Assembly: GCA_028824295.1 (NCBI GenBank)
Contig: JAPPED010000034.1
Location: forward strand, 62,001-126,000
Direction: 5' to 3'
Source of the DNA: Rhodospirillales bacterium
Lineage (GTDB): Bacteria; Pseudomonadota; Alphaproteobacteria; TMED109
Length of the DNA: 64,000 bases
The translations under genes and the position numbers were made by a program. Shown here piece after piece: positions 23,831 through 63,968 of the stretch; the first letter of the stretch is position 1; every line of letters starts with the position of its first letter. The notes beneath the pieces are model-generated. The model made no database searches. It was not told the origin of the DNA and saw nothing but the letters and a program-made list of their open reading frames with translations.

Positions 23831-25102
23831 CTAGCCGAGCATGTCTTGCCAGATCGCGCGGGCCCAGTCCCACGCCTGCAGCGCTACGGTCGCGGACCGC
23901 TGGCTGGAGACACCACTGGAACCCGGTCGGACCTGGAGTAGCCCCGTCTCGGGGTCGTAGCCGTACACCGCACCGACCGACGCCCCTTCCTCCGGCGAAA
24001 CGAGGCTGTAGCAGGTGTTGATGAGGGACGGGGGCGGAGCCCCGTTCCCTGTCAGCGCGGCGACTGCGGCTCGCGCTGCCACCTTGCCCATCGAATTCGC
24101 GATAAAACCCGATTTCGGCACCTTACCCACGGTCGTCTGGTCCGTGGCGTCGCCCACGATATGGATGTCGGAGGTCAAGGTGGACGTGAAGCCGTAGGGG
24201 TCGACAGGCGCCCACGTCGCCCCGTCTGGTACCAGACCGGCGTCGTGGAGCAGGCGGGAAGCCCGCTGCGACGGAATGACGTTGACGACATCGGCGGCCA
24301 CGTCGTCGAAATCGCTGGAAACCGTGCCCGCGGAGGCGTCCACCTGGACGAGCGGGCTGTCCGGGCGGTAGTCGACGATGCCCGGATACAGTTCGTCCCA
24401 GGCCGCCTGGAAGATCTTGCCCTTGGATACGATCTTCTGGTTGGCATCGAGCACCGTGATGGTGGCCCCGGGCTTGTGCAGCTTGAGGTATGCGGCAACC
24501 AGGCTGATGCGCTCGTACGGTCCTGGCGGGCACCGGTACGGGCTTGGCGGGATCGTCAGTGCGACGCGCCCCCCGGACGGCAGCTCGGCAAGTCGGGCCC
24601 GGAGCAGCGCCGTTTCGGGCCCCGGGCTCCAGGCAGCAGGGAACCGCTTGGCAGCTGCTTCGTTCCAGCCGTCGATTCCCGTGTAGTCGAACGCCACGCC
24701 CGGACTCAGGATCAGGCGGTCCCCCGCCACCACGCCGTCGGCGGTGACGATGGCCTTCGCGTCGACGTCGACCGCCTCCACTTCGGTGTGAAGGATCCGG
24801 ATGCCGTGTCGCTCCGAGAGTGCGGCGTAGGAATGGGTGATCTCGTCAACCGTCCGGAGATGACCGATCACCCAATTGCTGATCGGGCAAGAGTGGAACG
24901 CGGTCCTTCGTTCGATCAGGACCACCTCGATGCCGGGATCCAGCAGCCGAATGTACTTGGCGGCCGTGAGACCGCCCCAGCCGCCGCCGAGAACCACCAC
25001 CCGAGGGCCGGTCGCCGGCAGGATGCGTTCGGCGCGAACGGGCAGGGCCGAAACCAGTGCAGCGGCGCCGCCCGCCAGAATGCTTCGGCGGGTGAAACTC
25101 AT
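23831..25102 (-). CDS. fccB: Sulfide dehydrogenase flavoprotein (flavocytochrome c, FccB/SoxF)
   Basis: 423 residues. Twin-arginine signal (FTRRSILAGGAAALVSALP), then FAD-binding RVVVLGGGWGGLTAAKYIR. The family redox cysteines are present in PPSPYRCPPGPYERISLVAA and LINTCYSLVSPEEG. A C-terminal FAD contact is seen in IVGDATDQTTVGKVPKSG. Oxidises sulfide in the periplasm and passes electrons to its cytochrome subunit. The ATG at 25102 overlaps the fccA stop by 4 bp, so this start is preferred over one 11 codons upstream. Divergent to the sox genes, as in many soxF arrangements. Confidence 0.92.
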   Translation of the reverse strand: MSFTRRSILAGGAAALVSALPVRAERILPATGPRVVVLGGGWGGLTAAKYIRLLDPGIEVVLIERRTAFHSCPISNWVIGHLRTVDEITHSYAALSERHGIRILHTEVEAVDVDAKAIVTADGVVAGDRLILSPGVAFDYTGIDGWNEAAAKRFPAAWSPGPETALLRARLAELPSGGRVALTIPPSPYRCPPGPYERISLVAAYLKLHKPGATITVLDANQKIVSKGKIFQAAWDELYPGIVDYRPDSPLVQVDASAGTVSSDFDDVAADVVNVIPSQRASRLLHDAGLVPDGATWAPVDPYGFTSTLTSDIHIVGDATDQTTVGKVPKSGFIANSMGKVAARAAVAALTGNGAPPPSLINTCYSLVSPEEGASVGAVYGYDPETGLLQVRPGSSGVSSQRSATVALQAWDWARAIWQDMLG

Positions 25103-25407
25103 GGCTCGTTCCCCGGCGGCTGAGCCGCGAACCATTCGGCGAGTGCGGCAATCTCAGAATCATCGTAGCCGCGCGCGATCCGGCCCATTTCCTCGCTCGG
25201 GCGTTCGCCCGACCGGTAGGCCGCAAGGAGGCTGGCCAGTTCGGTCGCTTCCCGTCCTGCCAGATCCGGAATGACGCTGCCCTCAGGCACCCGTCCCGCG
25301 GTGCCATGGCATCCGGCACACGGCGCCGCCAGACGGGCACCGTCGCCGGACATGTCGGCGACGGCCGGTCCCGGCGCTGCGATCGCAAGCGCGAACACGG
25401 CGGGCAC
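25099..25407 (-). CDS. fccA: Monohaem cytochrome c, sulfide dehydrogenase subunit (FccA type)
   Basis: 102 residues from the GTG at 25407: signal peptide PAVFALAIAAPGPAVA, haem motif CAGCHG and axial Met likely in SEEMGRIARGYDD, class I cytochrome c. The GTG is preceded by GGGAGGG at ideal distance. Starts further upstream (ATG 25467 or GTG 25494) would overlap the soxX start on the opposite strand and leave the signal segment 25 residues in. It accepts electrons from FccB, whose gene overlaps the stop. Confidence 0.85.
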   Translation of the reverse strand: MPAVFALAIAAPGPAVADMSGDGARLAAPCAGCHGTAGRVPEGSVIPDLAGREATELASLLAAYRSGERPSEEMGRIARGYDDSEIAALAEWFAAQPPGNEP

Positions 25408-25459
25408 GAGCCCTCCCGCGCGGGTTGGTGCAGGATCACGCGACAGATAGGGTGCCAGG

Positions 25460-25924
25460 ATGCGCATGGTTCTCGCAGTCTTGGTGTTGGGCACGGCTTC
25501 GCTGTCCGCAACCCGGTCGGATACGGCCGATTCCGAACCGTTGGCAATTTACCAGATCGTGAATGACTCGATCCCGAAGCCGCTCGACGGCCTGGCCGGC
25601 GATCCCGAGCGCGGGCGGGCCATCGTCGCCGGTCGCGCAGGGAACTGTCTCGCCTGTCACCACGCGCCGATTCCGGAAGAGCCATTTCACGGTGATCTTG
25701 GACCCCCGCTCGAGGGAATCGGGGACCGCGCCACCGCCGGTATGCTGCGGTTGCGGCTGGTGGCGCCCCGAACACTCAATCCGGACACGGTGATGCCGGC
25801 GTTCCACCAGGTCGACGGCCTGCAGCGCGTGGCGCCGCAGCACCGTGGCCGCCCGATTCTCTCGGCGCAGGAGGTCGAAGACGTGATCGCCTTCCTGCTC
25901 ACACTTCGTGCCGACGGGCGCTAG
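25460..25924 (+). CDS. soxX: Sulfur oxidation c-type cytochrome SoxX
   Basis: 154 residues. Short signal (MVLAVLVLGTASLSA), haem motif CLACHH, axial Met in TVMPAFH, and C-terminal LSAQEVEDVIAFLLTLR. SoxX plus SoxA form the haem enzyme that oxidatively joins a sulfur substrate to the SoxY cysteine. First gene of soxXYZA. Two ATGs (25460 and 25466) are possible. Only about 50 bp separate it from the divergent fccA start, so both promoters must share a compact region. Confidence 0.92.
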   Translation: MRMVLAVLVLGTASLSATRSDTADSEPLAIYQIVNDSIPKPLDGLAGDPERGRAIVAGRAGNCLACHHAPIPEEPFHGDLGPPLEGIGDRATAGMLRLRLVAPRTLNPDTVMPAFHQVDGLQRVAPQHRGRPILSAQEVEDVIAFLLTLRADGR

Positions 25925-25956
25925 CGCAAATCTGCGTTGCGAACTATATCGGTAGC

Positions 25957-26535
25957 ATGACTGCCGGAGATTCATCGTCAGCAACGGCCTCAGGCGCGCC
26001 GGTTCGAGACTTGCCGCATGCCCCCCGGCCGTCTCGTCGGGCTCTGCTGCAGGCTGGCGGCTCTCTGGCGGTGACGGGGCTCGCGGGGTCGCGGGCCCTT
26101 GCCCAGGATTCGGCAGGCAACCCCTTTCGAGACCGGTTTCAGAGCTTCCGCCAGACGTTTCGGGTAGAGCCGGACTTGGAAGAGGCGAAGCGCATTCTCC
26201 GGAACCTCGTCCGGGGCCGGGAACCCGTCCCGGGATTGGTGGATTTCACGGCCCCGGATATTGCGGAAAACGGCAACGTTGTCCCCATCACGTTCCGCGT
26301 GAACTGCTCCATGACCGGGGATGACCGGCCCGCGGTGGTGCACGTCCTGGCGATGGGCAATCCCTTCCCTGAGGTCGCCACCTACCACTTCACGGAGCAG
26401 TCGGGTCGTGCTGAGATCGCGATGCGATGTCGGATGCGGCAGACTGCGGACCTGGTGATAGTCGCGGAAATGGTGGATGGAAGCCTGGGCCTTGCGCGCT
26501 CGCATGTGAACGTGACGCTCGGAGCCTGCAGTTAG
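25957..26535 (+). CDS. soxY: Sulfur carrier SoxY with non-canonical C-terminus
   Basis: 192 residues. Tat signal (SRRALLQAGGSLAVTGLAG), then the SoxY domain (ENGNVVPITFRVNCSM, VLAMGNPFPEVATYHF, AEIAMRCRMRQTADLVIVAE). SoxY normally ends in the swinging arm GGCGG, whose Cys carries the sulfur substrate. Here the protein ends TLGACS, so a penultimate Cys remains but the Gly-rich arm is altered and shortened. SoxZ is encoded 3 bp downstream. Two more cysteines occur inside the domain. Either the carrier works with a modified arm or a second SoxY exists elsewhere. Confidence 0.9.
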   Translation: MTAGDSSSATASGAPVRDLPHAPRPSRRALLQAGGSLAVTGLAGSRALAQDSAGNPFRDRFQSFRQTFRVEPDLEEAKRILRNLVRGREPVPGLVDFTAPDIAENGNVVPITFRVNCSMTGDDRPAVVHVLAMGNPFPEVATYHFTEQSGRAEIAMRCRMRQTADLVIVAEMVDGSLGLARSHVNVTLGACS

Positions 26536-26538
26536 GCG

Positions 26539-26931
26539 ATGGCCTCACGAGCCGACGAGCGACGGCTGAAAGTGCCCGAGCAGGCCAAGCAGGGCGAAGT
26601 GATCGTCGTGAAGACGCTGGCGCGTCATCCGATGGAGCCGGGCGTCCGGCGCGACCCGGATTCCGGGGTCATCTATCCGCGGTTCATCATTCAGTCGGTC
26701 GTCTGCCGCTTCAACGGGGTGGAGGTCTTTCAGGCGCGTTGGTACTCGGGCGTGTCCGAGAACCCCTTCCTCTCGTTTCCTCTCCGCGTGGATGAGTCGG
26801 GCGTGATCGAGGTGGAGTGGATCGACGACTATCTCAAGTCGACGACTCGTACCGCGTTCATCCAGGTGTTCGATGCGGAGGGTCGAGAGGTGTGGCCGGT
26901 CACGGCCGAGGCCCCGTCCGCCGTCGCTTGA
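26539..26931 (+). CDS. soxZ: Sulfur oxidation protein SoxZ
   Basis: 130 residues, slightly longer than usual SoxZ. Family features: GEVIVVKTLARHPMEPGVR, RDPDSGVIYPRFIIQSVVCR, YSGVSENPFLSFPLRV and VEWIDD near the end. It binds SoxY to form the SoxYZ carrier. SoxZ is exported with SoxY, which agrees with the lack of a signal peptide here. The stop overlaps the proposed soxA start (TTGA). Confidence 0.93.
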   Translation: MASRADERRLKVPEQAKQGEVIVVKTLARHPMEPGVRRDPDSGVIYPRFIIQSVVCRFNGVEVFQARWYSGVSENPFLSFPLRVDESGVIEVEWIDDYLKSTTRTAFIQVFDAEGREVWPVTAEAPSAVA

Positions 26932-27719
26932 GACGCCTCCCCTGGCTGTGGCCGGCGGTGGCCGGAATGGCCGTCGCATGGCCGGCCTGGGTCGGCTCCG
27001 AACTCCCCGCCCCCGCGCCTTCTCCGCCCCGCTCCGGCTACGAGTTTGCCCGCCCGGAAACGCAGGCAATCCAGGACGACGAATTTGCCAATCCCGGGCT
27101 GTTCTGGGTGGAGCGCGGTGCCGACCTCTGGGATAGCCAGGACGGAGTTGACGGAGAGTCCTGCTCCTCCTGCCATGGGGCTGCCGAAGCGCTGGCGGGT
27201 GCGGCCCCGACCTATCCGAAGATCGATCCTGTCAGCGGCCTGCTGATGAATCTCGAGCAGCGCATTAACGCATGCCGCACGCGCCACATGGGAAGCGAGC
27301 CCTACCCGCTGGAGAGCGACCCGCTGTTGTCGCTGAGCGTCTACGTGACGCGGCAGTCGGCTGGGCAACCTCTTCAAGTGCGAATCGATGGTCCGGCGCA
27401 GCCGTGGTTCGAGCGCGGCCGGAGCCTCTACGCAGAACGTGTCGGGCAGATGAACGTCGCCTGTACCCAGTGCCACGACCAGCGCGTCGGGCATCTGCTT
27501 CGGGCTGAGCGGATCAGTCAGGGACAGATCAACGGGTTTCCGGCGTACCTGCTTCGCTGGGGCACGGTGAGTTCCGTGCATCGCCGGTTCCAGTTTTGCA
27601 ACGAGCAGGCACGCGCCGAGCCGCTCCCCATCGGCAGCGACGACTACAACGCGCTCCAGCTCTACGTCGCTTGGCGAGGTACAGGCCTGGCGGTCGAGGC
27701 GCCCGCGGTGCGTCGCTAG
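26928..27719 (+). CDS. soxA: Sulfur oxidation c-type cytochrome SoxA (dihaem type)
   Basis: 263 residues from a TTG at 26928 that overlaps the soxZ stop (TTGA); an internal ATG 14 codons on is the alternative. Signal segment LWPAVAGMAVAWPAWVGS. Two haem motifs (CSSCHG, CTQCHD) mark the dihaem class. The active-site Cys, usually a persulfide and haem ligand, is in RFQFCNEQARAEP, followed by YNALQLYVAWRGTGL. It works with SoxX to load thiosulfate onto SoxY. The expected next gene soxB is absent: the following gene is convergent. Confidence 0.92.
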   Translation: MRRLPWLWPAVAGMAVAWPAWVGSELPAPAPSPPRSGYEFARPETQAIQDDEFANPGLFWVERGADLWDSQDGVDGESCSSCHGAAEALAGAAPTYPKIDPVSGLLMNLEQRINACRTRHMGSEPYPLESDPLLSLSVYVTRQSAGQPLQVRIDGPAQPWFERGRSLYAERVGQMNVACTQCHDQRVGHLLRAERISQGQINGFPAYLLRWGTVSSVHRRFQFCNEQARAEPLPIGSDDYNALQLYVAWRGTGLAVEAPAVRR

Positions 27720-55096: not shown

Positions 55097-55567
55097 TTAC
55101 CGTTGGGCTTCTTCCGCCACCGGGTTGTAGCCTTCCTCGAACTCGCCTCTGGCGAGCCGGTCCTTGTACTCTTGCCGCAAGTAGGCGATGATGGACCAGA
55201 TGTCATCGTCGGAAAGCGTCCGCGAGAAACCACCCATCTGGGTAGGGCGGCCGTTGATCGTAAGACCGGCGGCGATCACGGAATAGATGTCGAGATTCCT
55301 GCCCCCGCCCGCCTTGAACTTGTTGCAGCTCAGACACGGGCCCTTGGCCCCGATGCCGCGGCTGCCGTGGCAGAACCCGCACCGCGCCCCGTACCGCTCC
55401 TTGCCGTGCTCGATGGCTACGGCATCGCCTTCCAGCGGGTTCTCGATGTCGTCTTCACCGCCGTAGCCGAGGTCTTCGGCGGCGTTCGCCGTCGGTGCCA
55501 GCAGCACGAAGGCCGCGAACAGGCAGATGGGAAGGAGAGCGGCTCGGCGTAGGGATAGAGGGTGCAT
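55097..55567 (-). CDS. xoxG: XoxG-like c-type cytochrome (methanol dehydrogenase electron acceptor)
   Basis: 156 residues. Signal peptide LLPICLFAAFVLLAPTANA, then NPLEGDAVAIEHGKERYGAR, haem motif CGFCHGSRGIGAKGPCLSC, Met ligand in RPTQMGGFSRTLSDDDIWSI. Accepts electrons from PQQH2 in XoxF. Shorter than methanol dehydrogenase cytochrome cL of the Mxa system. Start ATG 55567; an ATG 9 bases upstream is also possible. It follows xoxJ by about 17-25 bp. Confidence 0.88.
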   Translation of the reverse strand: MHPLSLRRAALLPICLFAAFVLLAPTANAAEDLGYGGEDDIENPLEGDAVAIEHGKERYGARCGFCHGSRGIGAKGPCLSCNKFKAGGGRNLDIYSVIAAGLTINGRPTQMGGFSRTLSDDDIWSIIAYLRQEYKDRLARGEFEEGYNPVAEEAQR

Positions 55568-55592
55568 GAAATTCATCCGGGCAACGGCAGCG

Positions 55593-56417
55593 TCAGCCAG
55601 GGAATGGCGCGTAATAGGGAATCTGGTAGCCGGTGACGATCGACTCGATGGTGCCGTCGGCCAGCATGTCCGCCAGTTCGGCATTGACCAACTCGATCAA
55701 GCGGGTTTCACTTCCCGGGATGGCGGCGCCCACGTTCCAGCGGAGGCCCACGATCGGTTCAAAGCCTTCAACCAACGTAAAATTGGATTCCTTGTGCCGT
55801 CGGCGTTCGATGGCCAAGGCAGGTGCCCACACCATGGCGGCCTTGGTCTCCCGGTTGCGCAAGCCGTCGAGGACGCGCCGGTTACCGAGGTAGAGCTCAC
55901 GTTCAATGCCGTTGTCGATCAGGTAGCCGTCCATGGCCGTCGACATGGCCACCCCGATGTCGGTGTGCTTGGCGATGTCTTCAAGCGTGGCGGTATTAGC
56001 GAGTTCGGGGTCGACGACCGGGATGTAGGCCAGCCCGAGGTAGGGTGACGAAAAGATCAGGCCCTTTTCCCCGATTTCATCGACGTTGTCCGGATGGATC
56101 GCAATACCGGCGAACACCTGACAGCGCCCTTTGGCGATCGAATTGCGCAGCGCCCTGCCGAGCCCGCCCCGGGTGCCGGTATTCGACCAGTAAATCTCGG
56201 TGCGCCAGCCGTTGTTGGCGGCGATCTGCGAAAAGATCTCGACGTCGAAGCCGCGTGGATAGTCGGTCGAGGAACTGTGCGGCCAGTTGTACGGATCGGC
56301 GCAGATGGTGATGACGCCGCGATCCTCGATGTGGTTGAGAGCGTCTTCCGCTTGGGCGTCCAGACTCATGGTAAACGCCAGCGCGTACGCCGCGGCGCAG
56401 GTGGAGATCAGTTTCAC
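55593..56417 (-). CDS. xoxJ: XoxJ periplasmic binding-protein-like component
   Basis: 274 residues. Signal peptide (AAAYALAFTMSLDAQA), then a bacterial solute-binding-protein fold: VITICADPYNWPHSSSTDYP, GFDVEIFSQIAANNGWRTEI, GRCQVFAGIAIHPDNVDE, GVAMSTAMDGYLIDNGI, MVWAPALAIERRR. XoxJ proteins accompany xoxF and are thought to help activate or load the dehydrogenase rather than import solutes. It lies between xoxF and xoxG, giving the order F-J-G. Confidence 0.9.
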   Translation of the reverse strand: MKLISTCAAAYALAFTMSLDAQAEDALNHIEDRGVITICADPYNWPHSSSTDYPRGFDVEIFSQIAANNGWRTEIYWSNTGTRGGLGRALRNSIAKGRCQVFAGIAIHPDNVDEIGEKGLIFSSPYLGLAYIPVVDPELANTATLEDIAKHTDIGVAMSTAMDGYLIDNGIERELYLGNRRVLDGLRNRETKAAMVWAPALAIERRRHKESNFTLVEGFEPIVGLRWNVGAAIPGSETRLIELVNAELADMLADGTIESIVTGYQIPYYAPFPG

Positions 56418-56528: not shown

Positions 56529-58244
56529 TTAGTCGATGCCAAAGGCGAACAGGCCGCCGCCCTTGGTGTGGTTCTGGAGCCACTCACCAAAGGTGAGGGG
56601 CCAGATGCCACCACCACCTGCACCGACGACGATCGTGATGTACTGCTTGCCGCCGGCGGTGAAGGAGGTCGGGTTACCGTGCACACCGGTGCCGACGTTG
56701 AAGGCCCAGAGTTGTTCACCGGTGTCGTCGCGGACGGCGTGGAAGAAGCCCTCTGCGTCACCGTAGAACACGAGGCCGCCAGCCGTGGCCATCATGCCGC
56801 CCGTGGCGGGCGTGCTGTGCGGACGGATCCAGGCGAGTTCGCCGTTCGAGGCGTTGTACGCCTTCACCGCACCGTTACCCTTGTTGAAGGTCAGGACCTT
56901 CGCGCCCAGGTACCACTCACCGCGACGCCATTCCATCTTCTTCGCCTGGAGGTCCATCGAGAAGTTGTACGTCGGGACGTAGACCATGTTCACGCGCGGG
57001 GAGTAGGCCATCGGGTGCCACTCTTTTCCGCCGTCAAGCGAGGGGGCGATGTCGTTGGTACGACGGTCGTAGACCACGTCCATTGCCGGGTCGCCACCTT
57101 CTTCCCAGGCCATGATCGGACGGCAGTTGTCCTTGAAGCCAGGGGTCCAGTTGATCCGACCGAGCGGAACCACCCAGTTGCAACGTCCGTTGGTACGGTC
57201 GATTGAGTAGAGGTGGCCGTTCCGGTCGCCGTGGAGCCAGACCTTCTTGCCGTCGATGTCGGCCAAGATCACCTCGTTCACGCCGTCGTAGTCATACGGG
57301 TCGTTCGGGGTGTACTGGAACCAGAACTTGAGCTCGCCGTTGTCAGGGTCAAGCACGATCGTGGAGTTCGAGTACAGGTTGTCGCCAAGACGGACGTGAC
57401 GGTCGAAGTCCGGGCCCGGGTTACCGACCGGCACGTAGAGCAGGTGCAGGTCCTGGTCGTACGAAGCGGTGATCCACGTCGAGCCACCACCGTACTTCCA
57501 GGATTCGCCGGCCCACGTGTCGTTGTTGGGCTCGCCTTCAGCCGGAATGGTGTAGGTGTTCCAGACCGTGTCGCCGGTCTCGTGGTCGAGGGCGCGGACC
57601 CAGCCGCGGACGCCGTACTCGGCACCGGCGGTGCCGATGATGATCTTGCCGTCAAGCGCCAGCGGCATGACGGTGAAGGTCTCGGCGTAGGTGTAGTCAC
57701 CAACGGTCTTGTCGAAGACGACTTCACCGGTCGCGTTGTCGAGAGCGACCAGGTGCGCGTCGAGCGTTGCGAGGTAGACGTTGTCCTTGTACGGGGCGAC
57801 GCCACGGTTCACGACGTCACAGCACAGCTGCGGGTACACGTCGGCCGGAAGCTCGCGTTCGTACTTCCACTTGATCAGACCAGTCTGACCATCGGCCGCA
57901 ATCACGCGGTTGAAGGACGTCGTTACGTAGAGGGTGCCACCGACGGCGACGGCCTGGCTGTCCTGCCCCTCAAGGGTTCCGAACGACAGGTACCACTCAG
58001 CCTCGAGGTCCGCAGCGTTGTCCTGGTTGATCGCCGTCTGCAGGGCGTACCGGGTGGCCTCGTAGTCGCGACCGTAGTGGAGCCAGTTCATCGGGTCCTT
58101 GTCGGCGTTCAGAAGCATGTCGTCCGAAACGTAGTTCGGCTGCTGCTTGGGTGCCGCAAGGATGTCAATACCCTGAGCGAACGCGGACGTCGCGAGCCCA
58201 AAGCTCACGAGCACACCGATCGTCAGTTTGGTTAGGAGATGCAT
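56529..58244 (-). CDS. xoxF: Lanthanide-dependent PQQ methanol dehydrogenase XoxF
   Basis: 571 residues from the ATG at 58244 with GGGAGGAA upstream. Signal peptide KLTIGVLVSFGLATSAFA. PQQ propeller with the vicinal disulfide PQLCCDVVNRGVAP, metal-ligand Glu in GTAGAEYGVRGW, GNPGPDFDRHVRLGDN, and NDPYDYDGVNEV: the last Asp of DYD is the extra lanthanide ligand that separates XoxF from calcium-type MxaF. Oxidises methanol to formaldehyde or formate in the periplasm, reducing XoxG. No pqq genes are in the window. Confidence 0.97.
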   Translation of the reverse strand: MHLLTKLTIGVLVSFGLATSAFAQGIDILAAPKQQPNYVSDDMLLNADKDPMNWLHYGRDYEATRYALQTAINQDNAADLEAEWYLSFGTLEGQDSQAVAVGGTLYVTTSFNRVIAADGQTGLIKWKYERELPADVYPQLCCDVVNRGVAPYKDNVYLATLDAHLVALDNATGEVVFDKTVGDYTYAETFTVMPLALDGKIIIGTAGAEYGVRGWVRALDHETGDTVWNTYTIPAEGEPNNDTWAGESWKYGGGSTWITASYDQDLHLLYVPVGNPGPDFDRHVRLGDNLYSNSTIVLDPDNGELKFWFQYTPNDPYDYDGVNEVILADIDGKKVWLHGDRNGHLYSIDRTNGRCNWVVPLGRINWTPGFKDNCRPIMAWEEGGDPAMDVVYDRRTNDIAPSLDGGKEWHPMAYSPRVNMVYVPTYNFSMDLQAKKMEWRRGEWYLGAKVLTFNKGNGAVKAYNASNGELAWIRPHSTPATGGMMATAGGLVFYGDAEGFFHAVRDDTGEQLWAFNVGTGVHGNPTSFTAGGKQYITIVVGAGGGGIWPLTFGEWLQNHTKGGGLFAFGID

Positions 58245-58457
58245 TAGGTAATTCCTCCCGTTCAGCATCTTTTCATTAGGCGGGGCCACAAATCGACTGC
58301 CCGGGCGCGCTTGCGCGGCGCCGGTTTCACGTAGCCGTGCCTCGCCGAAACGGCGGCGAAACCCGAAAGGCCCTTCCTTTTGTGCGGCGGACTATACGGG
58401 GTTACGCAACGGGATGCCACCGGTTCGCGCCGGCCGAATCATCGGTCGGCCGTTCGG
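58245..58457 (-). promoter_or_regulatory. xoxF upstream region with possible -10 and hairpin
   Basis: This 213-bp leader lies between the SoxD-NosR fusion gene and xoxF. On the minus strand a -10-like TATAGT is at 58396-58391, without a clear -35. Downstream of it is a G/C stem (CGCCG-CCGTTT-CGGCG) and repeated TTTCG units, then the strong ribosome site. It suggests that xoxF has its own promoter and a structured leader. Confidence 0.35.
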
Positions 58458-61400
58458 CTACTTGGCGAAACTCCCCGGGGCCAGCGAGCGCCGCATCTGG
58501 GCCAAGGGCGGGCAGCGCCGGTCATCGTGGTACTCGACCTGACAGTCCAGGCACTGGAAGCACTCGTTCATGTTGATGACGCCGCTCGCGGGAATTGCCT
58601 GCACCGGACACGCTCGCTCGCACAGCCGGCACGGGTTCCCGCATTCGACGCGGCGCGCGAGGTTGCCGAAGATCCGCACCTTGCCGAGAACGGCGACGGC
58701 CGCACCCAGCGGGCACAGGAAGCGACAGTAGAAGCGCTCGACGAACAACCCGACCGCCAGCAGCGCCCCCGCATACAGGACATACGGCAGGCTGCGGTCG
58801 AACCGGAGCGTGATGGCCGTCTTGAACGGCTCGACTTCCGCGACGGTCTGGGTGGTACCCATCCCCAGGGTGAGGGCGCTGCCAATCAACACCGCCAGCA
58901 CCACGTACTTGAGGGCCCACAGGCGCTCGTTCGCCGTTTCCGCGATCGCGAGCGTGGGCAGCCGGACGGCACGCGCCAGGCGGGCCAGCAGTTCCTGCAG
59001 CGCGCCGAAGGGGCACAGCCAGCCGCAGAACACCCCGCGCCCGAACAGCACCAGCGACACGAGCGTGTAGCCGGCGATGATGACGATCAGTGGTTCGTAG
59101 AGGAAACTGGTCCAACCGCCGGTGAAGACGGCCTGCGCATACGTGAGCACGTTGACGATGGTGAGCTGCGCGTTCGCCACCCAGCCCAGCCAGCCGATGA
59201 CGACCACGAGGAAGGCAAGGCGCACCCATTGGTGGACCCGGCGGTGGCGCGAGATGACGTTGGGCCGAGCCACGAGCACCGAGAGCACCGCCAGCAGCAG
59301 CACGAGCCCCATGATGGCTCCGTCGTGCTCGGCCCAGACCCGCCGCCAGCCCTCAAGGGCGCTGGTTCTGACCAACCCGAAATAGGCCGTCTGGACCGGT
59401 CGGAGCCCGGCATCCTCAAGGGCGATCGGATCCCCGCCGATCAATTCCTGGGGCAACGAATACCCGACGTCGACTGCCCCGCCGCCCTGGTCCGGCGGTA
59501 CGCGAAGCTCGAGGGTCCATGGCTTGAGCGGGTCGAATTCCCATTTGCGCGGGATCCGGAACAGGCCGGTCTCCGAGAACAGCGGCCGTCCGTCGGCCCG
59601 GACCGCGGTCGCGGTGAGCGATTCCGACTTCGTGAAGCTGAACGATTGCTCACCCTGGACCAGCCGGAGCCGGTCGTACTGACCGGTCCGCCGGACGGCG
59701 TTCCCCCGCCAGGAGATGCGGCCGCTCCCGAGGACGGCGAGGAGCTGGTCGCCGTAGCCGATCTGCGAGATGTGGTGGTTGAACCACTGGCCGCCGAAGA
59801 GATTGCGGCCGACGTCGGCGGGCGTCGCGAGCGCAGCGTACAGCGACAGGACGGTCTCACCCGGCCCGTCGCTCTCGCCCCCGATCCCCAGATCCTGCGC
59901 CGAGTACTCGCCGCCGACCACGCCGCCCCAGTCCAGAAGCTCCTGCCAGGATCTCGGCTCGAACCGGTCGACGTCGAGCTGGAACGGACCGGTGTTCTCC
60001 TCCTCGCCCAGCAGCCCCTGGATCCGGGCCATCTTCCGCGCTGACAGGACGATCGCGTTGTACGTGAGCGTGGCACTGATCGTCGCGCCCCGGACGCCGT
60101 CCACCCCGCGCCCGGTGAACCGGACCGGACGACGGACGTCGAGGTTGCGAAGCCCCTCGAAGAGGTCCTCGAGCTTGGTCTGCGGGATCAGGCTGGGGCC
60201 CACCATCGGTTCGTGGAGTTCGAGGACCGCCGAGCCGGTGATGCGGCCGGCGTGATCCAGGCCGACGATGATGTCGAACGGTTCGCCCGAGTAACCGCGC
60301 GGGTTCACCGTCTCGAAGGTCGAGAACAACCATCCCTGCACCGCGTCGCCCTCCCGCACCGTGGCCACCGGCGGCGATCCGTCGGGCGGCTGCACGTCGC
60401 TGGCCCCGGGAAACGTCTTGGCGATGACGCCCGGCGTCAGGCGGGTTGCGAGCGGGTCGTACATGTCGGCGTCGGCTGGGTCGGTCGCGACCACCAGCGC
60501 CACCACGATCGCGGCCGCGGTCGCCCGCGCCGGCGTGCGCGCGGGCTTCGCCTCCGGGCAGAACGCAGGGTCGAAGTAGGCCTCCTGGCACCGGAGGCAC
60601 TGGATGCATTCCGAGTGATCGATCGTGCCGTCGGTACGGATGGCGCGGGTCGGACACACCGGCTCACACTTCGTGCAGCTGGTGCCGCAGGCCCGGTGGC
60701 GCCGGAGCCAGTTGAGCATCCGCAGCCGCCCGGCGAGACCCAGCGCGGCGCCGAAGGGACAGAGGTACCGGCAGAACGCCCGTTCGGTGAACACCGCGAT
60801 GGCCAGGCAGGCCACGGCCCAGACCACGTAGGGCCAGGGCCGCAGGAACGCGTCGCCGATCGCCGTCCCGAAGGGCTCGGCCGCCAACGCCGTATCGAGC
60901 ATGGTGGGCACGAACACCGCGACGGCCACGATGCCGGCCAGCACGGCGTACTTGAGAAACCGAAGACTGCCGTGAACGCGCGCCGGGGGCTCGTAGCGCG
61001 GCACCCCGAGCAGCCGCGCGGCCCGGTGAATGAAATCCTGCAGTGCGCCGAACGGGCACAGCCAGCCGCAAAAGGCGCCGCGTCCCCAGAGGAGCAGGGC
61101 AACCAGCGTGAAGACGGCGACCAGCACCAGCGCCGGGATGCCGAGCAGCGGGCGCCAGTCGCCGGCCGCAGTGGCACTCCGTGCTGCATCGACGATTTCT
61201 TGCAGGCCGGGCTGCACGCCGAACCAACCGCCCAGCCCGATCAGCGTGGCGGCGAGCAATCCCCCGCGGACGACGCGGTACAGCCGCGGGCGACGGGTCA
61301 GCGGGTCGGCCAGGACGAAGGTCGCGACCACGGCGCCGATCAACAGGACCACCGCCAATACGCTCAGGCCGGACGTGTGCCAGACGCGCTTCCAGGGCGG

Positions 61401-61928
61401 ACCCCACACGTCGACGAAGCCTTGCCGGTTCGGCATTTGCACCGCGGGCAGCGTCGTCGCATCCAGGACCAGGTCGCGGCCGATGATCCGGTTGGTCCAG
61501 AGCAGGTACGCGGTCACGGCATAGACTTCGTCGTCCGTCAGGGTGAGCGGCGCGTTGTGCGGCATCGCCCGGCGGATGTAGTCGAAGAGCGTCGTCGCGT
61601 ACGGCCAGTACGAGCCGACCGTCTTGACCGGCTGCGCGGTGGCGAGCGTGCCGACGCCGCCGGTGAGCATGTCGGCATCGGCGCCGTCGCCCTGCGCACC
61701 ATGACAGACCAGGCACTGCGCCTGGTACACCGATTCGCCGGCCTCGACGGTGCCCGAACCGGCGGGCAGCGTGGCGCCGTCGGGAGCGATGGAGATGTCC
61801 ATCTGCTGCACGACCGATTCCGACGCTTCCCGCCCGAGGTCCGGGGAGACCGGCCGCTCGTCGGCGCCGGCGGCCGCGCCGGCGCCTAGGGCAAGCAGCA
61901 GTGCTGCCACGACGACGGATCGGGTCAC
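58458..61928 (-). CDS. SoxD-like cytochrome c / NapH-like / NosR-like three-part fusion
   Basis: 1156 residues from the GTG at 61928, 13 bp after soxC. Signal 1-22. SoxD-like cytochrome c: haem CLVCH 72-76, Met ligand about 122 (AMPHNAPLTLTDDEVYAVTA). NapH-like membrane part about 185-460: FCGWLCPFG 286-294, FCRYLCPFG 385-393, polyferredoxin cysteines 414-457. Then a complete NosR-like unit: its own signal-like helix 470-487, FMN domain with RGATIS 613-618, membrane helices from about 870, FCGWLCPFG 967-975, YCRFLCPLG 1067-1075, cysteines 1096-1139. No internal stop or frameshift. Predicted to take electrons from SoxC through haem to membrane Fe-S/FMN centres. No nos genes nearby. The function is inferred. 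Confidence 0.9.
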   Translation of the reverse strand: MTRSVVVAALLLALGAGAAAGADERPVSPDLGREASESVVQQMDISIAPDGATLPAGSGTVEAGESVYQAQCLVCHGAQGDGADADMLTGGVGTLATAQPVKTVGSYWPYATTLFDYIRRAMPHNAPLTLTDDEVYAVTAYLLWTNRIIGRDLVLDATTLPAVQMPNRQGFVDVWGPPWKRVWHTSGLSVLAVVLLIGAVVATFVLADPLTRRPRLYRVVRGGLLAATLIGLGGWFGVQPGLQEIVDAARSATAAGDWRPLLGIPALVLVAVFTLVALLLWGRGAFCGWLCPFGALQDFIHRAARLLGVPRYEPPARVHGSLRFLKYAVLAGIVAVAVFVPTMLDTALAAEPFGTAIGDAFLRPWPYVVWAVACLAIAVFTERAFCRYLCPFGAALGLAGRLRMLNWLRRHRACGTSCTKCEPVCPTRAIRTDGTIDHSECIQCLRCQEAYFDPAFCPEAKPARTPARATAAAIVVALVVATDPADADMYDPLATRLTPGVIAKTFPGASDVQPPDGSPPVATVREGDAVQGWLFSTFETVNPRGYSGEPFDIIVGLDHAGRITGSAVLELHEPMVGPSLIPQTKLEDLFEGLRNLDVRRPVRFTGRGVDGVRGATISATLTYNAIVLSARKMARIQGLLGEEENTGPFQLDVDRFEPRSWQELLDWGGVVGGEYSAQDLGIGGESDGPGETVLSLYAALATPADVGRNLFGGQWFNHHISQIGYGDQLLAVLGSGRISWRGNAVRRTGQYDRLRLVQGEQSFSFTKSESLTATAVRADGRPLFSETGLFRIPRKWEFDPLKPWTLELRVPPDQGGGAVDVGYSLPQELIGGDPIALEDAGLRPVQTAYFGLVRTSALEGWRRVWAEHDGAIMGLVLLLAVLSVLVARPNVISRHRRVHQWVRLAFLVVVIGWLGWVANAQLTIVNVLTYAQAVFTGGWTSFLYEPLIVIIAGYTLVSLVLFGRGVFCGWLCPFGALQELLARLARAVRLPTLAIAETANERLWALKYVVLAVLIGSALTLGMGTTQTVAEVEPFKTAITLRFDRSLPYVLYAGALLAVGLFVERFYCRFLCPLGAAVAVLGKVRIFGNLARRVECGNPCRLCERACPVQAIPASGVINMNECFQCLDCQVEYHDDRRCPPLAQMRRSLAPGSFAK

Positions 61929-61941
61929 GGGCTGCGGGAAA

Positions 61942-63189
61942 CTAGAGGTAGACGTTGGTGACACTGCCGTCCGAGCCAATGTGCCAGCTCTGGATGGCAT
62001 TGCAGTGGTAGAGTTGGCCGTGCGCGTAGCGCGCCGACCATTCGGCCCGAGATTCCTGGCGATGGCCGGCCTGGTCGGTCGCCCGCGACAGGAGGGTCGC
62101 CGGCGACCCATCCCAGGTCCAGTTGTGCCGAAACCGGACGGGTGCGTACCTCGCCGGGCGACCGTCAAGCGCGGCGCTCTGCCACGAGTTGCCGCCGTCC
62201 GTTGAGACCTCCACGCGGCGCACGGCGCCGTGCCCCGACCATGCAAGCCCGGTGATGTGCTGAAAGCCCGGGGCGATCGTCTGGCCGCCGCTCGGTTCGG
62301 TGATGACCGACTTCACGTCCATGGGGTAGGTGAACTGGAGGGCCTTGCCGTCCGGTCGCAGGTCGCTGTACTTGGAGGTTTCGTCCCGCGTGTGGACCGG
62401 CTCCTCGACGACCTTGAGCCGGCGCAGCCACTTGACGTTGAGATTGCCCTCCCAGCCCGGCACCACCAGCCGCATCGGATAGCCCTGCTCGGGCCGCAGC
62501 CGTTCGCCGTTCTGGTACAGCGCCACCATGGCGTCATCCAGCGCCTTTTCCATCGGCAGGCTGCGGCTCATCGCGTTGGCGTCGGCGCCTTCGGCGAGAA
62601 GCCAGCGCGCGCCTCGTCGAGGCCGGGCCTCGCCGAGGAGCAGCGCCAGCGGGATTCCCGTCCACTCGGCGGTGGACACCAGCCCGTGGATCATGCCGCA
62701 CGTTTCGTCGACAGCCAGGGGAAAGGCATTCGAATTGAAGAAGCTGTTGCCGGCGCACTCGATGAACAGCACCTTCGTTGTCATCGGGTAGCGCAGCAGG
62801 TCGGCCGGCGAAAACAACAGGTTGCGTTCCACTTCGCCGTGAACGAGGAGTTCGTGGCGCAACGGATCGATGGCGGGCACGCCGTTGTGGCTGCGCTCGA
62901 AATGCAGGCCGTTCGGCGTGATCGTGCCTTCGAGGTCCTCGAGCGGGGTCATGGCCACGCCAGCCCCCGGCGACACATCCTCGTACGGCTGCAGTATCTC
63001 CCGTCCGACGTCCGCCTCCTGCGGAGCCGGCGCTCCGTACTCCCGGAACGGGCGTCCCGGGACCTGCATCCAGTCGGGGGCGGCGTCACCCGCCCGCCCG
63101 GCCAGCGCGGCACCGGGCGCCACGGCTCCGGCCGCCGCGCCTCCCAGCAGGGTCCGCCGGTTCAGCCGTGGGCCGCGCGGTCGGCGCAT
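61942..63189 (-). CDS. soxC: SoxC-like sulfane/sulfite dehydrogenase molybdenum subunit
   Basis: 415 residues from the ATG at 63189 (TGATG overlap with the SDR stop). Tat signal (LNRRTLLGGAAAGAVAPGAA), sulfite-oxidase fold with the Mo-ligating Cys in VLFIECAGNSFFNSNAF, GYPMRLVVPGWEGNLNVKWL, the dimerisation domain ITGLAWSGHGAVRRVEVSTD, and the SoxC-type ending CNAIQSWHIGSDGSVTNVY. SoxC with SoxD oxidises SoxY-bound sulfane sulfur; sulfite dehydrogenase SorA is the alternative. Next gene carries the SoxD-like domain, which argues for SoxC. Confidence 0.92.
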   Translation of the reverse strand: MRRPRGPRLNRRTLLGGAAAGAVAPGAALAGRAGDAAPDWMQVPGRPFREYGAPAPQEADVGREILQPYEDVSPGAGVAMTPLEDLEGTITPNGLHFERSHNGVPAIDPLRHELLVHGEVERNLLFSPADLLRYPMTTKVLFIECAGNSFFNSNAFPLAVDETCGMIHGLVSTAEWTGIPLALLLGEARPRRGARWLLAEGADANAMSRSLPMEKALDDAMVALYQNGERLRPEQGYPMRLVVPGWEGNLNVKWLRRLKVVEEPVHTRDETSKYSDLRPDGKALQFTYPMDVKSVITEPSGGQTIAPGFQHITGLAWSGHGAVRRVEVSTDGGNSWQSAALDGRPARYAPVRFRHNWTWDGSPATLLSRATDQAGHRQESRAEWSARYAHGQLYHCNAIQSWHIGSDGSVTNVYL

Positions 63190-63968
63190 CACCCGACTCC
63201 TTCTCCGAACCGCTCCTGCAGGCGCCGCATGCCGCGGATCCACCGGTCGTGGTCAGTGGCCTTGCGGCGGACGTACTCCGCCACGTTCGGGTGCGGCAGG
63301 ATGAGAAAGGTGCCGGCCTCGATCCCGTCGAATGCCGATCGGGCGACATCCTCCGGCTCCAGCACGCCATCGAGGCCGGCGACACCACCGTCCTCGAGGT
63401 TGGCGATCATGTCGGTGCGGACCGCCTGCGGACACAGGGCCGAAACCCCGAGACCCCGGTCACCCCACGTGATGGACAGCCACTCGGCATAGGCGAGGGC
63501 GGCATGCTTGGTCACGGCATACGTCGCCGAGCCGATTTGCGACAGAAGGCCCGCCGCCGAGACGGTGATCAGGAAGTATCCGCTACGGCCCGCCATCGGC
63601 GCCGCGAGGCGCCGCGAGGCGTACGCGTGGCTCATGACGTTCACGTCCCAGCAGGCCTGCCAGTCCGCCGCGCTCGTATCCACACCGCCCGGACGATGAA
63701 TGCCGGCGTTCGAGCAAAAGACGTCGATCGGTCCGGCGAACGCCTCGGCAGCTTCGATGAATTCCCCCATCGCCGCGTCGTCGCCGACGTCCGTAGCCCA
63801 GGCACGGCCCCCGCACGCCGCCGCGCAGGCCTCGGCGGCGCCGCCGTCGAGGTCGGCCACCGCGACGGCGCGCGCGCCCCGGCGGTGCGCTTCCATCGCC
63901 AGCGCGCGCCCGATCCCGTTGCCGCCGCCGGTGACCGCGACCACCTTGTCCTTCACATCCATGCTCAT
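63189..63968 (-). CDS. Short-chain dehydrogenase/reductase
   Basis: 259 residues. NAD(P)-binding VVAVTGGGNGIGRALAMEAH, VFCSNAGIHRPGGVD, catalytic Ser (LITVSAAGLLSQIG) and YxxxK in ATYAVTKHAALAYAEWL; SALCPQAVRTDMIANLEDGG is typical. Classical SDR, cytoplasmic, substrate unknown. Its stop overlaps the soxC start by one base, so it heads or belongs to the soxC-fusion operon; the start ATG is at 63968 and only 32 bp remain before the window edge. Confidence 0.92.
   Translation of the reverse strand: MSMDVKDKVVAVTGGGNGIGRALAMEAHRRGARAVAVADLDGGAAEACAAACGGRAWATDVGDDAAMGEFIEAAEAFAGPIDVFCSNAGIHRPGGVDTSAADWQACWDVNVMSHAYASRRLAAPMAGRSGYFLITVSAAGLLSQIGSATYAVTKHAALAYAEWLSITWGDRGLGVSALCPQAVRTDMIANLEDGGVAGLDGVLEPEDVARSAFDGIEAGTFLILPHPNVAEYVRRKATDHDRWIRGMRRLQERFGEGVG

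Follow-up and report, generated by a model that had tools for sequence, protein, structure and literature searches.

Where would a sulfur dehydrogenase send its electrons if the cytochrome that collects them were built into a membrane protein? The question is raised by a 64,000-nucleotide stretch of the genome of a Rhodospirillales bacterium (GenBank assembly GCA_028824295.1, contig JAPPED010000034.1, positions 62,001 to 126,000; hereafter, the window), in which soxC, encoding the molybdenum (Mo) subunit of a sulfane/sulfite dehydrogenase, is followed by a single gene that joins a SoxD-type haem c domain to two membrane iron-sulfur (Fe-S) modules and a NosR-like region predicted to bind flavin mononucleotide (FMN) (hereafter, the fusion; Table 1). 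The usual view of SoxCD is that its electrons go to soluble cytochromes: in ordinary SoxD, it is the second domain that hands electrons to a soluble cytochrome c. Judging from its sequence, the fusion may instead be the membrane-anchored redox arm of a SoxC dehydrogenase, a reading that we hold tentatively but as a serious possibility.

The fusion is read from one frame. As a first, sequence-only reading of the window had claimed, this frame (58458-61928, minus strand) runs without a stop from a GTG start through 1156 residues, and the GTG lies 13 bp downstream of the soxC stop codon (61942-61944). The SoxD-like haem domain seen in that reading is equally well founded: residues 31-172 match chain 2xts_B, the SoxD of the crystallised SoxCD complex, with E-values of 1.5e-33 within the fusion and 4e-35 as a domain alone, the haem-binding CLVCH and the axial Met are in place, and 2xts_B is also the best fold for a separate model of residues 1-460 (Foldseek, E 1e-9; mean predicted local distance difference test score, pLDDT, 77.3), a model that confirms the SoxD fold and nothing else. 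The predicted structure of the full-length protein is poor in its N-terminal half (pLDDT mostly <60) and supports no cofactor distances; a fold search of the PDB with this full-length model gave no meaningful match. The fusion contains a single CxxCH, the second haem domain of SoxD not being present, and soxB-less relatives, too, usually have a short SoxD the size of one domain. The fusion also has four stretches of the Fer4_5 type (PF12801) and matches the NosR profile over residues 500-1147; the haem ligands, the Mo-binding Cys of SoxC and the ferredoxin Cys are all kept. The signal-like helix that the NosR half had been said to retain (at 470-487) is real, a hydrophobic helix at ~467-485, and is now an internal membrane segment.

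What are the two membrane modules? The middle one had been called NapH-like: a membrane Fe-S module it is, but the label is loose, and NapH proper is rejected on score and distance, with 113.8 bits on TIGR02163 (NapH/MauN) against a cut-off of 213, ~39% identity to the NosR-type C-terminal module and a very distant relationship to E. coli NapH. Whether it is orthologous to a second, FMN-less NosR in family f125 (see below) is neither shown nor excluded (orthology test, approximately unbiased p, p-AU, 0.386). The C-terminal half had been taken for a whole NosR-like protein, and its layout of an FMN-type region followed by a polyferredoxin module agrees with this, with the CX3CP pair and the two ferredoxin-type Cys motifs of NosR present; the name itself fits loosely, since the NF046105 (NosR) score is 798 bits for the whole fusion and 537 for the NosR stretch, short of a cut-off of 1000 that is strict (none of the genomes in the NosR comparison reached it). 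The module tree groups this C-terminal unit with NosR genes of sister genera (support 96/93) and places it outside the clade containing NosZ-linked NosR. The absence of nosZ noted in the window extends genome-wide: a TIGR04244 search found no nosZ in the window's genome, nor among the 13 genomes tested. A NosR belonging to a nos cluster is rejected because the genome is without nosZ. The same genome has two more NosR-like genes (L136 8146-10716; L137 7969-10365) that lack a DxxSGAT-type flavinylation motif and lie beside ABC transporter and metabolic enzyme genes.

Could separate genes have been wrongly joined during assembly or annotation? The named records that carry the fusion are metagenome-assembled genomes, yet such an artefact is scarcely credible. 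The full-length frame is present in all seven genomes of the genus, whose members are uncultured alphaproteobacteria (89-97% identity), and soxC adjoins it wherever the neighbourhood was checked. Among the five sequences compared, all four domains are under purifying selection (ratio of nonsynonymous to synonymous substitution rates, dN/dS, ~0.05-0.17 per domain); the signal peptide and the junction linker evolve fast, and the junction has a raised dN and carries an in-frame six-residue indel. With seven species-level genomes, an in-frame linker indel and selection on both flanks, an assembly join is rejected. Nor does any start codon precede the NosR helix: the nearest are GTG at 475, inside the helix, and ATG at 489, past it, which leaves no way to translate the NosR half on its own with that helix whole.

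Relatives reveal how the fusion arose. Four genomes of two sister genera have the genes for a short-chain dehydrogenase, a small protein, SoxC, a SoxD-module protein, a separate NosR, a pyrroloquinoline quinone (PQQ) dehydrogenase, an XoxJ-like protein and a cytochrome c, in this order; in two sister genomes, NosR follows in the same frame directly past a TAA, and only this stop codon separates it from the SoxD-module gene. Three genera have a SoxD that is covalently joined to such a module, and the simplest history that the sequences suggest is one in which the SoxD-module fusion came first and loss of the stop codon second, which would explain why a signal-like helix is still found in the NosR half. 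The SoxD-module protein of one sister genome (L111 7411-9447) has two SoxD haem domains ahead of the module.

Is SoxC itself ordinary? Like MsrP of the MsrPQ system, it is a Mo enzyme of the sulfite-oxidase fold; MsrP is linked to a quinol-dependent membrane partner, MsrQ, which contains haem b and has no kinship with NosR. Against the MsrP model, SoxC reaches no more than 19 bits. Likewise, SorAB-type sulfite dehydrogenase combines a Mo enzyme with a cytochrome c, but SoxC reaches 137 of 600 bits on the SorA model and, besides its retained Mo-binding Cys, does not have the sulfite-binding Arg of sulfite oxidases. This Arg is missing from all SoxC rows of the alignment, those from soxB operons included, and is kept by a separate SorA-like protein of the window's genome. 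In the SoxC tree, the sequences from the fusion loci, the sister genera and f125 form one clade (100/98), apart from SoxC of soxB operons; all 11 members of this clade, and no other rows, share a loop, ECxGNSF(F/Y)NSNxF, which may denote a different substrate.

The covalent joining is restricted, the linkage behind it less so. Joint matches to SoxD and the module were found in none of the 397 other Pseudomonadota (398 scanned, including the window's own genome), the matches there covering one part, in a scan that scored no more than four candidate places in each genome and may therefore have missed some. SoxC occurs in 40 of 385 genomes of the class; among those then tested, 27 have soxB, and none of the 27, going by the positions listed, has a NosR-like gene next to soxC. 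Within this set, adjacency of SoxC and NosR was seen in soxB-less genomes only: in the window's family, in two genera of family f125, and beside a distant SoxC copy in one further genome (G264). The two f125 genera have two NosR-like genes beside soxC-soxD, with no PQQ gene adjacent, one Beijerinckiaceae genome carries NosR-apbE-soxC-soxD twice, and in two further named genomes a more distant SoxC pair adjoins NosR-apbE. SoxC-NosR adjacency recurs outside the window's family in at least two more alphaproteobacterial groups. In the Beijerinckiaceae duplicates (L034, L035), genes that look like those of xanthine-dehydrogenase-type enzymes follow; elsewhere (L149 8613-10485), a soxB-less soxC-soxD pair is flanked by two large molybdopterin-type oxidoreductase genes.

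How might electrons travel through such a protein? The periplasmic Mo enzyme SoxC would oxidise sulfur, in all likelihood the sulfane sulfur borne by SoxYZ, and the tethered SoxD domain would receive the electrons on its haem. The soluble outlet of SoxD would have given way to the pair of NosR/NapH-type membrane modules, together with a periplasmic domain carrying flavin. These would move the electrons into the membrane, with the quinone pool as the probable acceptor, and the former signal helix of the once separate NosR would bring the chain back to the periplasm. We infer the substrate, the inward direction, flavinylation and the quinone partner; the conserved fusion, the recurrent SoxC-NosR linkage and the tie between SoxD and the module in three genera make a SoxC wired to the membrane, one of the two directions that the sequence-only reading had offered, the best reading of the locus. 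NapH-like flavinylated proteins have already been proposed to accept electrons from alcohol oxidases (PMC8238504).

Much also weighs against this reading, beginning with the direction and path of the current. For the characterised relatives NosR, NapH and PceC, the role described is to supply reductases with electrons, and electron transfer from haem c to an Fe-S cluster is normally uphill. Three sister genomes (L108, L109, L110) are without four of the eight ferredoxin-type Cys of the middle module, a loss that should leave one [4Fe-4S] cluster there, and the CX3CP motifs in this protein family are considered more likely to be disulfides than Fe-S sites (PMC5928378); a long Fe-S chain across both modules is thus not conserved, and little speaks for the long Fe-S wire that had been suggested. 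The flavin is in question too: the fusion motif, DGVRGAT, departs at one position from the flavinylation consensus D-x-x-[S/T]-G-A-[S/T] (PMC12052999), and PF04205 (FMN_bind) gives 15.1 bits, below its cut-off of 22; the FMN domain is assigned by NosR homology only. The sister genera retain DGVTGAT, and apbE was found in every genome tested, the window's included.

The other Sox genes add to these difficulties. soxB was not found in any of the 11 family genomes tested, the window's genome included, so the usual Sox cycle cannot close. The genes for SoxXYZA form a separate operon, and SoxC-less family members have soxA as well; the soxXYZA genes therefore have no fixed tie to the fusion. SoxY has an atypical arm, which in the family ends in GACS (window 26500-26535; L162 7050-7595; L163 6606-7175) where GGCGG is canonical. 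It is nevertheless plausible that the soxXYZA genes, which lie ~35 kb from the fusion within the window and are found in sister genera too, supply the substrate carrier for SoxC; the idea of a genome without Sox carriers was dropped, SoxY-like genes having been found. That all of this amounts to a new Sox branch, a self-contained membrane-wired SoxC with a covalent SoxD-polyferredoxin-NosR arm that would oxidise SoxYZ-bound sulfur without SoxB and send electrons directly to quinone, is conceivable but doubtful.

What if electrons ran the other way, from quinol through the membrane modules and FMN to the SoxD haem? The SoxC-type enzyme would then be a periplasmic reductase, as is MsrP, a relative of SoxC that works with MsrQ. 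The reductases thought to be fed by NosR, PceC and NapH systems speak for this direction, and so do the lack of the sulfite-binding Arg, the loop that all 11 clade members have to themselves, a SorA-like enzyme that keeps the Arg and is available for sulfite, and the missing soxB. The Arg, however, is absent from every SoxC row, even where soxB shares the operon, SoxC scores above its equivalog cut-off, and the neighbourhood holds SoxYZ, SoxXA and further oxidative genes; we consider reverse flow unlikely. A different client for the NosR half, the PQQ alcohol dehydrogenase encoded downstream, seems distinctly unlikely. SoxCD would on this account merely share the membrane protein or be a second client. 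At all family loci examined, the PQQ gene comes after the fusion, and 172 genomes combine NapH-like flavinylated proteins with genes for the alcohol oxidase ExaA (Meheust et al. 2021, PMC8238504); on the other hand, the PQQ cluster comes with a cytochrome c of its own, the 168-bp gap ahead of the PQQ gene contains a promoter-like site, and f125 and Beijerinckiaceae keep NosR with SoxC where no PQQ gene was found adjacent.

The membrane arm could also be a maintenance device, in which CX3CP thiols and flavin would reductively reactivate SoxYZ or the SoxC cofactor and carry no main current. That CX3CP motifs may be sites of thiol/disulfide chemistry and not of Fe-S binding (PMC5928378) and that the CX3CP core is retained in the sister modules without one Fe-S cluster would agree with such a role, which is nonetheless quite improbable: the SoxD haem domain is covalently coupled to the module with its haem site intact, and this suggests a through-current.

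The gene order around the fusion (Table 1) bears on several of these readings; the sequence-only reading had passed over both the PQQ alcohol dehydrogenase cluster immediately downstream and the soxXYZA genes. From their arrangement, the genes for the short-chain dehydrogenase, SoxC and the fusion look like one transcription unit, and the cytochrome c of the downstream cluster is the likely partner of the PQQ dehydrogenase. Farther away (window 23831-27719), the soxXYZA genes stand beside a divergent gene pair, one encoding a flavoprotein with a weak match of the sulfide:quinone reductase type and the other a cytochrome c, in a genome without soxB; they constitute a Sox system lacking its hydrolase. 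In sister genera (L162 3629-5808; L163 8443-10615), soxXYZA is followed by genes resembling those of a cystathionine-synthase-type enzyme and of cysteine synthase, a hint that thiosulfate or sulfide may be assimilated.

Table 1. The fusion, its parts and the genes around it, in window coordinates
Feature	Position	Strand	Basis and remarks
Fusion gene, 1156 aa	58458..61928	minus	From the N-terminus: signal peptide, SoxD-type haem c, middle membrane Fe-S module, NosR-like FMN domain, C-terminal membrane Fe-S module
SoxD-type haem c domain	61413..61838	minus	Residues 31-172; CLVCH 72-76; axial Met in RRAMP ~122
Middle membrane module	60549..61403	minus	Residues 176-460; CX3CP at 287 and 386; eight ferredoxin-type Cys (414-457); PF12801, motifs, tree
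Junction	60459..60563	minus	Residues 456-490; variable linker and former NosR signal-like helix (~467-485)
NosR-like periplasmic FMN-binding region	59325..60443	minus	Residues 496-868; NF046105
Predicted flavinylation motif DGVRGAT	60081..60101	minus	Residues 610-616, acceptor Thr616; Arg, not Ser/Thr, at position 4
C-terminal NosR-type membrane module	58479..59324	minus	Residues 869-1150; two CX3CP and 2x[4Fe-4S]-type ferredoxin end
soxC, Mo sulfane/sulfite dehydrogenase catalytic subunit, 415 aa	61942..63189	minus	TIGR04555 509 bits, equivalog cut-off 420; 2xts_A E 2e-97
Short-chain dehydrogenase	63189..63968	minus	Stop overlaps soxC start; upstream of soxC in sister genera too
PQQ alcohol dehydrogenase	56529..58289	minus	TIGR03075 545 bits; nearest solved relative PedH (6zcv/6zcw); lanthanide-type DYD motif
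XoxJ/MoxJ-like periplasmic binding protein	55593..56417	minus	TIGR03871 43 bits, below cut-off
Cytochrome c	55097..55684	minus	PF13442, weak MoxG/PedF matches; start probably nearer 55564
soxX	25460..25924	plus	TIGR04485 78 bits, cut-off 61
soxY-like carrier	25957..26535	plus	TIGR04488 90 bits, cut-off 125; C-terminus LGACS, not GGCGG
soxZ	26539..26931	plus	TIGR04490 90 bits, cut-off 76
soxA	26817..27719	plus	TIGR04484 211 bits, cut-off 110; frame as listed, true start further in

How much of this is new? SoxCD of Paracoccus pantotrophus (PDB 2xts) resembles the present pair in SoxC and the first haem domain of SoxD, in the adjacency of the genes and in the Mo-binding Cys and haem ligands, but not in a single haem domain that runs into membrane modules, a genome without soxB and a clade-specific SoxC loop. 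NosR, which donates electrons to nitrous oxide reductase, shares the periplasmic FMN-type region, the membrane core with two CX3CP motifs and the C-terminal 2x[4Fe-4S] end, whereas here there is no nosZ, the score stays below the NosR cut-off, the sequence lies outside the NosZ-linked clade, the NosR half sits behind SoxD and a second module, and the flavinylation motif is changed at one position. The NapH-like flavinylated systems described in PMC8238504 come close in combining a PF12801 membrane protein and an FMN domain with a neighbouring periplasmic oxidoreductase, with apbE in the genome, and in their modular use of partners; the passages on them give NirS (nitrite reductase) and ExaA (ethanol oxidase), not SoxCD, as partners and describe no covalent joining to a cytochrome subunit. 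No paper combining NosR with SoxC and SoxD was found among those searched, and the titles and abstract openings of the papers retrieved for XoxF and NosR do not concern this layout. As far as the literature search reached, the statement that no system with this layout has been described holds, nitrite reductase and ethanol oxidase being the partners described for NosR/NapH-like flavinylated proteins (PMC8238504). The fusion would appear to be a hitherto undescribed variant of an already known modular apparatus.

What would this mean? SoxCD would join the partners of flavinylated NosR-like proteins, whose reactions mostly await assignment, and the fusion would offer a single construct for probing what a NosR-type module does and in which direction it moves electrons. 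If SoxC is indeed wired to the membrane, the covalent NosR-type arm would change the point at which sulfur electrons enter respiration and the energy conserved.

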